Origin: a virus
Direction: 5' to 3' (one strand)
Virus record (IMG/VR): IMGVR_UViG_3300036792_000107
Location: 1-64,000 of that record
Length of the DNA stretch: 64,000 nucleotides
Below are positions 8,922 to 31,722 of this stretch, piece by piece. The notes beneath the pieces are model-generated. The model did no database searches and was not told the origin of the DNA. It saw only the letters and a list, made by a program, of their open reading frames with translations. The position numbers and the translations under genes are program-made. Positions within the stretch are counted from its first letter, which is position 1. Each line of letters begins with the position of its first letter.

Positions 8922-9428
8922 ATGCCGAGAACAAGCGCCGAACAACTCGCCGTCAAGCGTGAGCGCCGCACTGCATGGATTGCCTCTCAAGGTGGCAAGT
9001 GCGTACAGTGCGGCGCTACAGACTCTCTAGAGATCGATCACCTAGAACGCGCTTCCAAAGAGTATGAAGCGGACTACCTTTGGTCACTACACCCCGACAA
9101 CCCTCTAGTGACTACGGAGCTAGCCAAATGTCAACTCCTATGCCGCAAGTGTCACCGATCCAAAACAAACCTAGAAATGCAAACAGCCGAACACGGTACC
9201 CTAAGTAAGTATCAAGGAGGGTGCCGCTGTATCCCATGCACGGAAGCTAACGCAGAACGCCAGCGTATTTACTGGCGTGAGCGCGGTAGGTCCGCGTTCA
9301 AGCCAACCGAACACGGTAAACCCGGTATGTACAACACTCGCAAATGCAAGTGCGATGCGTGTCGTGCAGCTAAGAAAGCCTACGCTGAGGCATACCGCGC
9401 ACGTAAAGCACAAGGGGAGAACAGCTAA
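8922..9428 (+). CDS. HNH endonuclease with two C-terminal Cys repeats
   Basis: 168 residues. Residues about 27-85 carry the HNH pattern: CVQC, then LEIDH, then CRKCHRSKT, i.e. a zinc-bound beta-beta-alpha-metal nuclease. The C-terminal half repeats a module twice, EHGTLSKYQGGCRC..C and EHGKPGMYNTRKCKC..C, probably DNA-binding zinc modules. A free-standing homing-type nuclease is likely. It ends in a TAATG junction with the next gene, and a 28-base gap separates it from the gene before. Confidence 0.8.
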   Translation: MPRTSAEQLAVKRERRTAWIASQGGKCVQCGATDSLEIDHLERASKEYEADYLWSLHPDNPLVTTELAKCQLLCRKCHRSKTNLEMQTAEHGTLSKYQGGCRCIPCTEANAERQRIYWRERGRSAFKPTEHGKPGMYNTRKCKCDACRAAKKAYAEAYRARKAQGENS

Positions 9429-13704: not shown

Positions 13705-14838
13705 ATGAGCAGCACAGAGCTAGACTACGCGCGCAAGCTTGTTGCGAGCGCGCTGTACGCTCCAGACCACTACGCCGACGTAATCGCCGTAGCGTGCGCG
13801 CTAACCCACAAGATCGATGACGTGGACAGCGCGCCGCGCATCCTCGCACTGGGACTGAAGGGAAGCGGCAAGTCAACGATCCTGAAGATCGCCTACCGGC
13901 TGGCCGCGAACGCAACGCCGCCTACCGGCGTCAAGGCGATGACCGGCCCGAGCTACGTGGCCGACTTCCGGATGAACCCGCGATCGACCCACCTGCTGGA
14001 CGAAGTGAACCAGCTTTTCGGGGAAGCCGGCAGCAACGGCAAGAGCAGCCAGTTCTACACCTACCTGAACCAGGGATACCTGCGGGACACGGCGTACGCC
14101 CAGTACCAGGAAAACCGCGTGAAGATGCAGATTCCGATCTTCGGCGTCGTGTTCATGGCCGGCCTGGGGCTCGGATGCCCTGACGACACCCGCGACCGTT
14201 CGGTCGTCCTGAAGATGGAGTCCGCGCCGGCCCACGTCGAAGTTGCGGACTTCTCGCTCAAGGAGACGAAGGAAGCATTCGACTACGCGGGCCGGATGCT
14301 TGCCTCGTGGGTCTCGCGCGTGCCGAAGCTGAACGTGTCCGCGTGCCGTGGACTTCACCCGAAGCTGAACCACCGCCGTATGGAAGTCTGGGGTCCGCTG
14401 TTCGCGGTGGCAATGGCCGCTGACGAAGGCGAACCGGGCGAGTGGACAAAGCGCATACTAACAGCGTTCGAACGAATCGAACTGAACGACGGCGTGCCGG
14501 TATATGCACCCGAGGATCAGATCCTGCTGGACTATCTGGACTTCTACCACCAGAAGCCTATGGACGGCGTCCCGTCCGGCGCGTTCGCGGAGTACGCACA
14601 CAACCAAAAGCACGGCGCATACTCCGGTATGAAGCCGGGCCAGTTTAAGCAGTTCGCGGTCAAGATCTTGGGGCCTACTGCCCCATTCTACAATGTAGAA
14701 ACGCAGGGGATGCTGCGGGGATGGTCGCACGATATCCACAATATGAACCTCCGCCACGCTCAGGCCCGTAAAGCCGAGCTAGAAGCTGAAAAGCGCCAAG
14801 ATTCGGGCGAAAAGGAGGACTGGTCTGAGGAATTCTAA
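13705..14838 (+). CDS. P-loop ATPase (DUF3631/helicase-like)
   Basis: 377 residues. Walker A GLKGSGKST (Lys about 56) and Walker B HLLDEVNQ (Asp 99, Glu 100) define a RecA/AAA-type ATPase; overall layout resembles DUF3631-like ATPases found with mobile-element primases, though I cannot confirm the family. ATG follows GGAGGGGGTAAC. Residues about 309-357 (MKPGQFKQFAVKILGPT ... RGWSHDIHNMNL) recur, recoded, at the end of the GIY-YIG protein directly downstream. Probably acts on DNA. The ATPase call is firm, the role is not. Confidence 0.75.
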   Translation: MSSTELDYARKLVASALYAPDHYADVIAVACALTHKIDDVDSAPRILALGLKGSGKSTILKIAYRLAANATPPTGVKAMTGPSYVADFRMNPRSTHLLDEVNQLFGEAGSNGKSSQFYTYLNQGYLRDTAYAQYQENRVKMQIPIFGVVFMAGLGLGCPDDTRDRSVVLKMESAPAHVEVADFSLKETKEAFDYAGRMLASWVSRVPKLNVSACRGLHPKLNHRRMEVWGPLFAVAMAADEGEPGEWTKRILTAFERIELNDGVPVYAPEDQILLDYLDFYHQKPMDGVPSGAFAEYAHNQKHGAYSGMKPGQFKQFAVKILGPTAPFYNVETQGMLRGWSHDIHNMNLRHAQARKAELEAEKRQDSGEKEDWSEEF

Positions 14839-14876
14839 TACAGAAATACGTAAATACGGATCGGAGGGAGGAAACG

Positions 14877-15464
14877 ATGAAGCACGACCTGTACCGTCAC
14901 TACGACACCGACGAAAACCTACTGTATATCGGCCGTACAGTACGGGGCGTAAAGCGCGCCAACGAACACGCACGGGACAAATCGTGGTGGGATGAAGTAG
15001 TGGTCACTCGCTACGAAAAATTCGATAGCCTCGCGGAGCTGAAAGAAGCCGAGAAAAAAGCGATCCGCGAGGAAAATCCCTTGTACAACAAGCAGCGTTA
15101 TCGCCTGACGACAGTAAAAACACATACGCGTCTAACGCGACAGAAAAAGCGCTTGGTATCTAGCGGCGTCTACAAGAAAGAATGCATCAATAGCCTCTAT
15201 GTCACTTACTTCTCTCTCGGAGAAGACCAAAAGTCCGTAAGGTCTGGACTTCTCGCGCAGATAGCCTACCCAGTCGTGACCCGGATACAGCCGATGCAAC
15301 CCGGGCAATTCAAACAATTCGCAGTTAAGGTACTCGGGCCGACTACACCGTATTACGACGGTGAGAAGACGGTTCGCGGCTGGACGGGCGTCGTTCACAC
15401 CACGAACCTTCACGAAGCCGAGATAGCTCTAAAGGAGATGGAAGATGCCCGCACAACGCCCTAA
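14877..15464 (+). CDS. GIY-YIG endonuclease with captured ATPase C terminus
   Basis: 195 residues. Residues 1-80 have the GIY-YIG pattern: LYRHYDTDENLLYIGRT, an Arg/His-containing helix, a Glu (EEN) and PLYNKQR. Residues about 140-190 match the last part of the upstream ATPase (PGQFKQFAVK is identical in both; then LGPT..YY, RGW, NL). In that ten-residue identity eight codons differ, all synonymously. Lower GC than its neighbours suggests transfer. Most likely a homing endonuclease that carries a recoded copy of its host gene's 3' end. Its end overlaps the next start by 20 bases. Confidence 0.8.
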   Translation: MKHDLYRHYDTDENLLYIGRTVRGVKRANEHARDKSWWDEVVVTRYEKFDSLAELKEAEKKAIREENPLYNKQRYRLTTVKTHTRLTRQKKRLVSSGVYKKECINSLYVTYFSLGEDQKSVRSGLLAQIAYPVVTRIQPMQPGQFKQFAVKVLGPTTPYYDGEKTVRGWTGVVHTTNLHEAEIALKEMEDARTTP

Positions 15465-28504: not shown

Positions 28505-28615
28505 TCAGAGCACCCCGAAGCTCCGCAGGATGTAGAAAATCTCCATGGCGATGTAGAACGCCACCGCCCACGCGAACATGGTCACGGCACAGCCGAAGCG
28601 GTCAACGGCGTTCAC
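28505..28615 (-). CDS. 36-residue membrane peptide
   Basis: GTG start overlapping the polymerase stop (GTGA), so translationally coupled to it. One membrane helix with aromatic ends. Unknown role. Confidence 0.6.
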   Translation of the reverse strand: MNAVDRFGCAVTMFAWAVAFYIAMEIFYILRSFGVL

Positions 28616-31600
28616 GAGCTATCAGGCCAGCTTTCCCACGGCTCGTCTGTGTCCGCACCGATCATGACCTCGAACCCGGGTGAGCTTAGCACAGTCGAGC
28701 GCATGCAGTTCTGGAGAGCGCGGGTAGCCTCGTGAGCCTCGTCAGCGGGGACAAGCACGTCAATTTCATCATGAATAGGCAGCAGCGGCAGCTTGCCCCA
28801 CCGGGTACGGCTCCAGCGGATCAGCCCGTCGATCAGCAGCTCCCGCGCAGTTCCCTGGATGGCCCCGTTGCCCGCAGCGTGCGCGCCGTTGGTGACGTAG
28901 ACATTGCGCCCTGAGTAGGTCTGGTAGACCATGTGGCGCGCGGTTCCGGGGATCTCCTGGCTGAAGTTGGTGCCCGTGGAGTAGTCGCGCCACATGCGCG
29001 TGCCCTTTTCGTAGCACATACGTAGCCACGTGTCCCATTGGGTGTACGCAGGTGCTACAGAGTTGAACGCCTCCCACACCTGCTGCATGAGTTCGATGTC
29101 GCAGCCCACCTGGTCAGCCGCAGTAGCGGGACCGCCGCCGAACAGCCGGGTGAACGTGCCGCGCTTGGCCTGGTACCTGTGCTCCTTGGTGGCCTCCGGG
29201 CCGTGCGCGGTGTGGGCCGTCAGCCAGTGCAGTCCCAGGTGCTCTTTGCCTTCACCGCACGCGCAGAACTGCGGCCCGTCAGGGTACTCGTCGGGGTGAA
29301 CGAACTCCCCGCACCTGCGGCACTGGTTCGACGTCTCTGCCTCGTACAGCCCCCTGTCACCGGACAGCGCAGCCGCAACCCGGATCTCGCAGCCCTCGAA
29401 GTCGGCGCTGATGCCCCGCAAAGGCGTCAGAATGCCCCCAGAAGGGACGATCTCCCACTGACCGTCCCGGAGTGCCAGAAACGCCTCTCCGGCCCGCACA
29501 CAGGCCCGTATGCCCCCTTGACGGCTGTTACCGGAGACGATGACCTTCCCGTTGCAGCGGACGACGACCGCGCCCGAGGAAACCGTCACGCAGTGAACCA
29601 TCCCGTCCGAGTCTTCCTCGGTTACGTTCGTACGGGACGCCCACCGCTCGGCCTTCGGGAATACCTGCACGTTGGCGTACTCGCGCCCGTCTACGCGCTT
29701 GAACGACCGGCACGTGGAATGCCCCGACAGGAACGCCGCCATCTCCACGGCGTCAACTGCGTCCGCGCGGCTAAGAGCCTGGTTGTAGGAAGCACACCGG
29801 GTACTGTCGCCATCCCAGATCATGACCTCGCTCAGGAAGCCGTCAAGCTCTGAAGAATCCAGTTCCAGCAGCGCGGGGATGCTGAACGTCTTGGAAGGCA
29901 TCGAAAGCCACGGGACGCAGTCGGCCTCGTAAGCCTTGGCTTCCATGATGACCTTGCCACCTGCGGTGTTCGGTGTGGTCCTGACTTCGAACCCCAGCTC
30001 ACGGGCACGGTCAGCCTTACGCTGCTTCGTGATCTTGATGGAAACGAACCGCCGGTCGGCGGCAAAGTAACCGTCTGCCTGCACGGCAACGGCACGATAC
30101 AGCGCAAGGCGTTCGGCGTCGTTCAGCTTGCGTCCCTTGAGCCGGCCGCCCCGGATGAACTTGCGGTCCACGATCTTGTCGTCAGTACCGTGCTTCAGCC
30201 ACGAATCCGCGCGTTCGACCATGAGCTTGCCGTCGCGGGTCTTGGAGTAGACACGGTGGTTCGGGGTGACGAGCTGTTCGTGGTGCTCGCCTTTGATGCG
30301 GATCATCGTACCGTCGTACGGCTGGTGGGTAACCGCTTCGGGAACGACGAACTCGATGATTCCTTCTGCCCATTGGGCTACGTGCTCCGAGCCGTCTAGC
30401 TCGGGAAACGCCTTCCAGCCCTGGTCTGTAAGGATGTCCATGTCTGAAGTATAACAGAACTGCTGCCCGTTGGGGCGAACGCAGGACATGCGGCCGGTCT
30501 TCGCGTTGATCGTGTACACCGTGGGCCGCATCATCGAGTCGCCGTGGGTGCACAGGTTCTCAAGCGGCCTCAGCAGCAGCCCGAGCTTCGTTACCTGCCC
30601 CCGGTAGCTGACGATGCTGCGGGCCAGTTCGCTGCCGCGCTTCGCGATAGGCTCCAGCGATTCCTTCCCGGCGGTGGGCTTCTTCGTCTTGCGGTCGCAC
30701 TTCAGCGGGAACTCTGCCGGGCGCTCCAGCAGGTACTCCAGCACTTCCTTCGACGCGGACGGGTTGACGATCCGGCCTTCGGTCAGCTTCTCCACGGTTT
30801 CGCGGGCTTCGGCGTGGCCGGCCTCGGCTTCGGCGATCTTGGCGCGGATGTGGCCGAAGTCCAGCGGGAAGCCGTCCATCGCCGCCCTGGCGCAGACCTT
30901 CTGCGCGATGCGTTCCCGCTCCATGACGTCAGCGCCCACCGGAAGCGGCGGGAGGACCCGGAGCACCGCTGCGAGATCGAGTACGTCCGAGCCCGCGTAG
31001 CGCACCATCACCGTCGCGAACTTCGACACCTGGTGCCAGCCGTTGCGCTCGGGAGGGGTCGTGTTGTCGGTCTTCTTCAGGCACTTCATGACCGCGAACA
31101 GCTTGTCCTTGGCCTCTTCGGCTGACGGCGACACCGCGTACTCGCGAAGGAGGTCTTGGGCCAGCTGCTTGAGCTTGTCGGCCTCGGAGCCGCAGAGCAT
31201 CGGGTCGGTGAGCTTGGCGCGGATGACGGAGTCGTGGAGCTTGTCCCAGATGTCATCCCAGCTGATCAGCCCGGCTACCACGCACGGCACCGCGTCGGCC
31301 GTCACCGAGTGAGCCCAGATCCTCCCGGCGGCGTTCAGCGCCCAGCTCGCGATCATCGCCTGCTTCTCGTCGGCCGCGTCCAGCACCACGGCCATCTCCT
31401 CGCCGCCCAGCTGCACGGTGCGGAGTTCGTAGTACTGGTGCCCGACCCAGTACCCGGACGTTTCGGTGTCCAGGCAGAGGTCTTCAAGGTACTGCTCGAT
31501 GATCTCCACGGCTGTCATCGCGTGGATCTCTTTGACCGTGCCGTCACGCAGGACGACAGCGGGCAGCTGCACTCGCCCCTCTTCGGCTTCGTCCCGCTTC

Positions 31601-31722
31601 TGCTGCTTGGCGGCGGCTATCTGCTCGCGGGCCAGCCTGGTCCGGTTTTCCTTTTCGGCGGCGCGCTTGGCTCTCGCGTAGCCAGCCTTGCACGCCTTCA
31701 CCCTCGGGTCCATCTTCGGCAC
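28612..31722 (-). CDS. Family A DNA polymerase with intein
   Basis: 1036 residues, of which 423-732 are an intein; the mature protein would have 726. N-terminal 3'-5' exonuclease-like domain (LCLDTETS with Asp/Glu; ExoIII-like VRYAGSD). Polymerase motifs: RMSCVRPN...QQF, motif A SADFEGCEIR, motif B RYQAKRGTFTRLFGGG, motif C LPIHDEIDV. A Cys-rich insert CRRC...CAC lies between A and B. Starts GTG 31722 (ATG at 31713 possible); TAGAGT lies at -12 to -7, so probably leaderless. Replicative polymerase, divergent from the primase-helicase gene. Confidence 0.9.
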   Translation of the reverse strand: MPKMDPRVKACKAGYARAKRAAEKENRTRLAREQIAAAKQQKRDEAEEGRVQLPAVVLRDGTVKEIHAMTAVEIIEQYLEDLCLDTETSGYWVGHQYYELRTVQLGGEEMAVVLDAADEKQAMIASWALNAAGRIWAHSVTADAVPCVVAGLISWDDIWDKLHDSVIRAKLTDPMLCGSEADKLKQLAQDLLREYAVSPSAEEAKDKLFAVMKCLKKTDNTTPPERNGWHQVSKFATVMVRYAGSDVLDLAAVLRVLPPLPVGADVMERERIAQKVCARAAMDGFPLDFGHIRAKIAEAEAGHAEARETVEKLTEGRIVNPSASKEVLEYLLERPAEFPLKCDRKTKKPTAGKESLEPIAKRGSELARSIVSYRGQVTKLGLLLRPLENLCTHGDSMMRPTVYTINAKTGRMSCVRPNGQQFCYTSDMDILTDQGWKAFPELDGSEHVAQWAEGIIEFVVPEAVTHQPYDGTMIRIKGEHHEQLVTPNHRVYSKTRDGKLMVERADSWLKHGTDDKIVDRKFIRGGRLKGRKLNDAERLALYRAVAVQADGYFAADRRFVSIKITKQRKADRARELGFEVRTTPNTAGGKVIMEAKAYEADCVPWLSMPSKTFSIPALLELDSSELDGFLSEVMIWDGDSTRCASYNQALSRADAVDAVEMAAFLSGHSTCRSFKRVDGREYANVQVFPKAERWASRTNVTEEDSDGMVHCVTVSSGAVVVRCNGKVIVSGNSRQGGIRACVRAGEAFLALRDGQWEIVPSGGILTPLRGISADFEGCEIRVAAALSGDRGLYEAETSNQCRRCGEFVHPDEYPDGPQFCACGEGKEHLGLHWLTAHTAHGPEATKEHRYQAKRGTFTRLFGGGPATAADQVGCDIELMQQVWEAFNSVAPAYTQWDTWLRMCYEKGTRMWRDYSTGTNFSQEIPGTARHMVYQTYSGRNVYVTNGAHAAGNGAIQGTARELLIDGLIRWSRTRWGKLPLLPIHDEIDVLVPADEAHEATRALQNCMRSTVLSSPGFEVMIGADTDEPWESWPDSS
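29527..30456 (-). other. Intein in DNA polymerase (310 residues)
   Basis: Begins with Cys1 in CYTSDMDILTDQGWKAF after QQF, has a block B-like LVTPNHRVYS, an endonuclease-like block (RAVAVQADGYFAADRRF, degenerate LAGLIDADG style), and ends VVRCNGKVIVSGN followed by Ser+1. Removing it restores RPNGQQF-SRQGGIRAC, the conserved polymerase segment just before motif A. A class 1 intein; whether the nuclease is active is unclear. Confidence 0.9.

Follow-up and report, generated by a model that had tools for sequence, protein, structure and literature searches.

A GIY-YIG nuclease encoded by an actinobacterial phage ends in a domain homologous to the C-terminal domain of the ATPase encoded by the adjacent gene; the catalytic residues of the nuclease are intact, and the pairing recurs in relatives that share different types of domain with their neighbours. 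We consider it probable that this enzyme is modular, that it acts in homing or interference, and that it took its C-terminal, putatively DNA-binding domain from the neighbouring replication ATPase gene.

The gene pair lies in a stretch of 64,000 nucleotides, hereafter the window, with which a virus record of 70.7 kb begins. We assign the source to an actinobacterial phage because its gene for ribonucleotide reductase is similar (~72% DNA identity) to the corresponding genes in phages of Streptomyces and other actinobacteria. Two other genes of this phage deserve mention in their own right. An intein-like segment apparently splits the DNA polymerase I gene (28612-31722, minus strand) without breaking the frame; residues ~270-421 and 771-1010 match polymerase models, and the intervening stretch starts with CYTSDMDIL and ends near SGNS. 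The phage also encodes a Ro60-type protein (43652-45253, plus strand) with TROVE and Ro60 vWA domains (E 1e-63).

The ATPase gene (13705-14838, plus strand) encodes 377 amino acids and the nuclease gene behind it (14877-15464, plus strand) encodes 195. Searched against its own genome, the ATPase matches the 3′ part of the nuclease gene (15225-15455) with 42% identity over 80 amino acids (E 4.4e-14) and no stops, and the local alignment of the two proteins, in which 27 of 50 residues are identical, scores 142 against a maximum of 51 among 500 shuffles. The initial annotation had described the nuclease as carrying a protein-level copy of its neighbour's C-terminus, and both this reading and its open reading frames were correct. 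Both genes encode MxPGQFKQFAVKxLGPTxPxY followed by RGW, H and NL, with the conserved core at 14629-14679 in the ATPase (MKPGQFKQFAVKILGPT) and at 15294-15344 in the nuclease (MQPGQFKQFAVKVLGPT), both on the plus strand. The likeness reaches upstream of the core that had been noticed initially, covering residues ~285-364 of the ATPase and ~117-190 of the nuclease; we delimit the shared domain as ATPase residues 285-364 (14557-14796, plus strand) and nuclease residues 117-195 (15225-15461, plus strand). Its protein sequence has been kept, because dN is 0.33 while dS is saturated. Searches for this domain elsewhere returned nothing beyond chance in phages, viral contigs, a species-level genome collection and ~800 actinobacterial genomes, and as far as these searches reached it appears to be private to the ATPase-nuclease pair. 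Two matches (loci L089 and L090) proved to be to a histidyl-tRNA synthetase motif and were judged to be chance. The searches found neither an ATPase homologue close enough for allele comparison nor a nuclease-free phage at this locus.

Several lines of evidence identify the N-terminal part of the nuclease (residues 1-75; 14877-15101, plus strand) as a GIY-YIG catalytic domain. The protein matches the PHROG 16880 (E 1.5e-18) and PHROG 3312 (E 3.8e-18) profiles, and its best annotated relatives are mycobacteriophage endonucleases; the identity within the GIY-YIG domain is 40% to Whouxphf gp70 and Veteran gp66 and 38% to Yoshi gp55. The score against the Pfam GIY-YIG model (PF01541) is 21.0 bits (E 4e-4), under the gathering score of 22.6 bits, which is a curation threshold and not a biological one; Yoshi gp55 and the related nucleases at loci L211 and L195 all score above it. 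Residues Y6, Y17, G19, R27, H31, E59 and N71 are invariant across six relatives, and the GIY-YIG catalytic constellation is complete. A phylum-wide search with the nuclease returned chiefly long proteins of UvrC size. The catalytic domain is joined to the shared domain by a linker (residues 76-116; 15102-15224, plus strand), which is the most AT-rich part of the nuclease (GC3 0.54). Folded alone, the nuclease gave a model with a pLDDT of 40, which was set aside. Judging from its sequence, a GIY-YIG nuclease that carries a copy of its neighbour's C-terminus falls most naturally among homing-type enzymes, as the initial annotation had proposed.

The ATPase is of the AAA+ type and is distantly related to DUF3631 proteins of Streptomyces plasmids (tblastn, 29-31% identity over 219 amino acids, E 1e-9); from 302 relatives, 80 genomic loci were kept. 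Its score against the Pfam DUF3631 model (PF12307) is 18.8 bits (E 0.002), below the gathering score of 24 bits, and we therefore call it a remote DUF3631 relative and not a member of that family. The DUF3631 relatives, replication ATPases of Streptomyces integrative plasmids, adjoin a prim-pol and an integrase there. A structural model of the ATPase built with ~42 relatives (pLDDT 82) matches MCM-type AAA+ helicase domains in the PDB (Z 17.6), a comparison that mainly spans residues 1-269 and thus says little about the C-terminal domain; Foldseek matches include ORC and RuvB, and the model also matches phage primase-helicases in BFVD. The genomic context of the DUF3631 relatives and the matches of the model to MCM-type and primase-helicase proteins together make a role in replication likely. 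The C-terminal region (residues 269-366) is modelled as helices at 291-299, 311-325 and 342-366, with a poorly predicted, wing-like stretch at 325-337. This suggests that the shared domain is a winged helix, and its position and predicted fold are compatible with a DUF3631-type C-terminal domain. A profile built from 80 DUF3631 C-terminal domains gave no match to the shared domain above shuffled controls, so the winged helix is put forward as a structural suggestion.

The initial annotation had also proposed a recoding of the copy that would spare it from being cut, pointing to the ten identical residues PGQFKQFAVK, in which eight codons differ, all synonymously. The count is right; the proposed recoding, in contrast, finds no support, because codon divergence of this degree is ordinary for homologues of such age. 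The eight differences, in a core picked post hoc, compare with 4.2 expected (p 0.009), and across all 27 identical residues 16 codons differ where 12.4 are expected (p 0.08), the expectation being independent choice from each gene's own codon usage. The divergence lies within the range of nine other nuclease-neighbour pairs that we compared; across the ten pairs, different codons are used at 45-64% of identical degenerate residues, with the window's pair at the top of the range (64%). The pattern is best read as ordinary synonymous saturation between old homologues.

In base composition the nuclease gene does stand out as AT-richer than its surroundings, as had been noted at the outset, with a GC content of 0.52 compared to 0.615 for the window and a GC3 of 0.62, a value that puts it among the lowest ~1-2% of stretches 93 codons long. 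The C-terminus of the ATPase is likewise somewhat low (GC3 0.71, lowest ~8%), and the AT-rich tract begins within the 3′ part of the ATPase gene. Homing endonuclease genes commonly, though not by strict definition, stand free between other genes and deviate in composition; the nuclease gene does both. The lowest GC3 among the genes examined (0.53) belongs to an HNH endonuclease gene elsewhere in the window (8922-9428, plus strand), another possible mobile nuclease.

The pairing of a nuclease with its neighbour recurs. We surveyed relatives of the nuclease in phages and then in Streptomyces genomes and plasmids, ignoring the N-terminal extensions found in the first survey, where matches came from stretches before the start codon and often from out-of-frame translation. 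Among 59 GIY-YIG nucleases with a C-terminal part, 11 have a C-terminal part homologous to a same-strand gene within 600 bp, and these span 6 of the 24 families of such parts; the other 48 lack a neighbour match. Matches within a locus were found for 11 of 821 near same-strand open reading frames and 0 of 7,644 distant or opposite-strand ones, counts that include non-gene stop-to-stop frames, with equal inflation in both classes. Between loci, C-terminal parts match in ~1.4% of pairs, and several of the shared domains have no match at any other surveyed locus. The initial annotation had raised the alternative that the shared segment is a common domain ending many unrelated proteins. In the collections searched, this is not the case for the window's sequence; at the family level, the C-terminal part is swappable and often recognisably DNA-binding.

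The partners in these pairs are diverse. In two mycobacteriophages the partner is a tyrosine integrase: the C-terminus of Yoshi gp55 and the N-terminal domain of its neighbour, the integrase gp54, are 59% identical over 51 amino acids, and in Demsculpinboyz the C-terminal part of the nuclease similarly matches the integrase N-terminus (53% over 74 amino acids). In both of these phages the donor integrase lies downstream of the nuclease, whereas most other donors lie upstream; the copy is C-terminal to the nuclease domain in all 11 matched cases, which is the position of the DNA-binding domain in GIY-YIG homing enzymes such as I-TevI. In Streptomyces, the nuclease at L214 matches a neighbouring HTH protein (49% over 83 amino acids) and that at L211 a neighbouring XRE protein. 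Those at L253 and L255 match a small upstream protein (49-54% over 71-80 amino acids), which belongs to one family with the small neighbouring protein matched by the nuclease at L195. Because the L195 protein has no Pfam or NCBIfam match, DNA binding by these three partners is presumed. The weakest of the eleven cases are those at L204, L217 and L263, in which the C-terminal parts match neighbouring GntR regulators at 31-36% identity, no closer than ordinary paralogues. Four nucleases that have no neighbour match also adjoin replication genes: those of Veteran and Whouxphf (replication initiation protein), Pytheas (RepA-like initiator) and Send513 (primase). A candidate pair in Veteran, gp66 and gp67, shares a CxxC..CxxH module over 27 amino acids alone; this was not significant and was left out of the count.

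Three further observations came from the same survey. The second half of the PHROG 16880 profile is an integrase N-terminal-type domain, and the profile finds integrase-sized open reading frames in genomes; the profile thus mixes GIY-YIG and integrase N-terminal domains, and integrases can be mislabelled by it as 'endonuclease'. Several Streptomyces plasmids of 85-92 kb (L253-L263) have a GntR regulator, a small gene and a GIY-YIG nuclease at one locus, and the C-terminal parts of these nucleases either are GntR-type or resemble the small gene, as though taken from a local repertoire. A separate Streptomyces clade of GIY-YIG proteins (L225-L240) has a conserved C-terminal tail starting with PPPPPD and no neighbour match, and looks resident rather than mobile.

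How might a neighbour's domain serve a nuclease? Integrases, initiators and other replication proteins, and repressors frequently have their binding sites (att sites, origins and operators) next to the genes that encode them. A nuclease with a domain borrowed from such a neighbour would therefore be directed to its own locus in relatives that lack it. We propose that the domain was gained long ago, by duplication or recombination, that it binds DNA, and that the two copies recognise an identical or related site. This site would lie near the gene pair and could be a replication origin or an operator, perhaps the three 8-bp direct repeats at 14837-14860 (AATACAGA, AATACGTA and AATACGGA), a candidate binding site in the gap between the ATPase stop and the nuclease start. 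They are the only triple of such quality in the 64 kb window, where 0.2 would be expected. We infer that the nuclease would bind, cut and home; the outcome would be homing, the destruction of competing related phages or elements that lack the nuclease, or both. Self-cutting might be avoided if the ATPase occupies the site, or if carriers have a split or altered cut site.

Four other explanations were weighed. One builds on the yeast WHO elements, in which a host gene is followed by a nuclease and then by a copy of the host gene's 3′ end (PMC7282813); a WHO-like nuclease would have brought a cutting-resistant replacement for the 3′ end of the ATPase gene, and the displaced original end would have become fused to the nuclease. 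The initial annotation had similarly allowed for insertion into the gene with both ends left functional. The order in the window, gene, nuclease and 3′ copy, equals the WHO product (PMC7282813) and fits both versions, and the start of the AT-rich tract inside the ATPase 3′ part also favours a WHO-like event. However, the WHO copy is a separate fragment outside the nuclease that serves recombination and may decay (PMC7282813), whereas the window's copy is part of the nuclease, in frame and conserved. In Yoshi and Demsculpinboyz the gene order is wrong for such an event, the copy being of the N-terminus of a downstream integrase, and the codon divergence is ordinary. That the copied domain is C-terminal whether the donor lies upstream or downstream argues for a targeting domain and against a leftover of insertion. 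We regard a WHO-like origin as unlikely.

Just as unlikely, in our judgement, is a joint role of the two proteins in which both bind the origin and the nuclease nicks it to help start or resolve replication. Replication proteins do occur among the neighbours of the family, and a common domain would imply common sites, but an integrase and regulators are also among the partners, and no such nuclease is annotated beside the ATPase relatives on plasmids (L004, L005). Slightly less probable again is that the shared domain serves protein contact or dimerisation instead of DNA binding, so that the pair forms a complex: the domain itself matches no recognised DNA-binding family, yet several relatives share a recognisable HTH, GntR or integrase N-terminal domain with their neighbours. 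That both genes recruited common domains independently and are adjacent by accident is very improbable: HTH and GntR domains are common in Streptomyces and cross-locus matches occur, but the matches within loci are all to near genes (11 of 821 versus 0 of 7,644), several shared domains are unmatched at other surveyed loci and the window's domain is unmatched in every collection searched.

The closest known system is the origin-directed nuclease Odn of phage ICP1, a tested case of an initiator-like domain that aims a GIY-YIG-type nuclease (PMC8263062); nucleases of the Odn type target the origin of a foreign replicon. In Odn, a nuclease of the GIY-YIG superfamily is joined to a domain like the DNA-binding domain of a replication initiator, and the identity is 42% there too (PMC8263062); in the window's nuclease the domain, which would bind DNA, is shared with a replication-type ATPase. 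The two differ in that Odn's domain is similar to a parasitic satellite's initiator (PMC8263062), whereas the window's donor is the phage's own adjacent gene. Moreover, the Odn domain is N-terminal (RepA_N) and the window's is C-terminal, and Odn has been assayed for activity whereas that of the window's nuclease is predicted. T5orf172 homing endonucleases, in the available text of one account, shuffle DNA-binding domains with other genes, and in coliphages the T5orf172/RepA_N proteins are counterparts of satellite initiators (PMC10448857). They and the window's nuclease are alike in their modular domain exchange; as far as that text goes, it mentions no pairing with a neighbour in the same genome, and among the partners no integrase, XRE, GntR or AAA+ ATPase protein. 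The same text gives I-TevI as a GIY-YIG domain, a linker and a C-terminal DNA-binding domain (PMC10448857). This layout matches that of the window's nuclease, but I-TevI is intron-encoded, unlike the window's enzyme. The DNA-binding part of I-TevI is not known to derive from a neighbouring gene. The PHROG 16880 endonucleases, of the Yoshi type, have the same nuclease domain as the window's enzyme and a different C-terminal domain. In the open-licence literature, to the extent that its text was available, we met no description of a nuclease paired with an adjacent gene in this way, and an earlier report may exist elsewhere.

How free-standing homing endonucleases gain new targets is an open question. 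We tentatively suggest, as a possibility somewhat short of an even chance, that free-standing GIY-YIG nucleases have a general source of specificity in the genes beside them: by residing next to proteins that bind close to their own gene, and by copying DNA-binding domains from them, they would become aimed at their own insertion locus in every relative without the nuclease. The recurring nuclease-neighbour pairing leads to a rule for prediction, in which the adjacent gene tells what the enzyme binds. Many annotated phage 'GIY-YIG endonucleases' thereby become testable, and Yoshi gp55 and gp54, in a laboratory system with Mycobacterium smegmatis, would come first. Such a source of specificity would extend the Odn principle beyond conflicts between phages and satellites to the phages and plasmids of actinobacteria.
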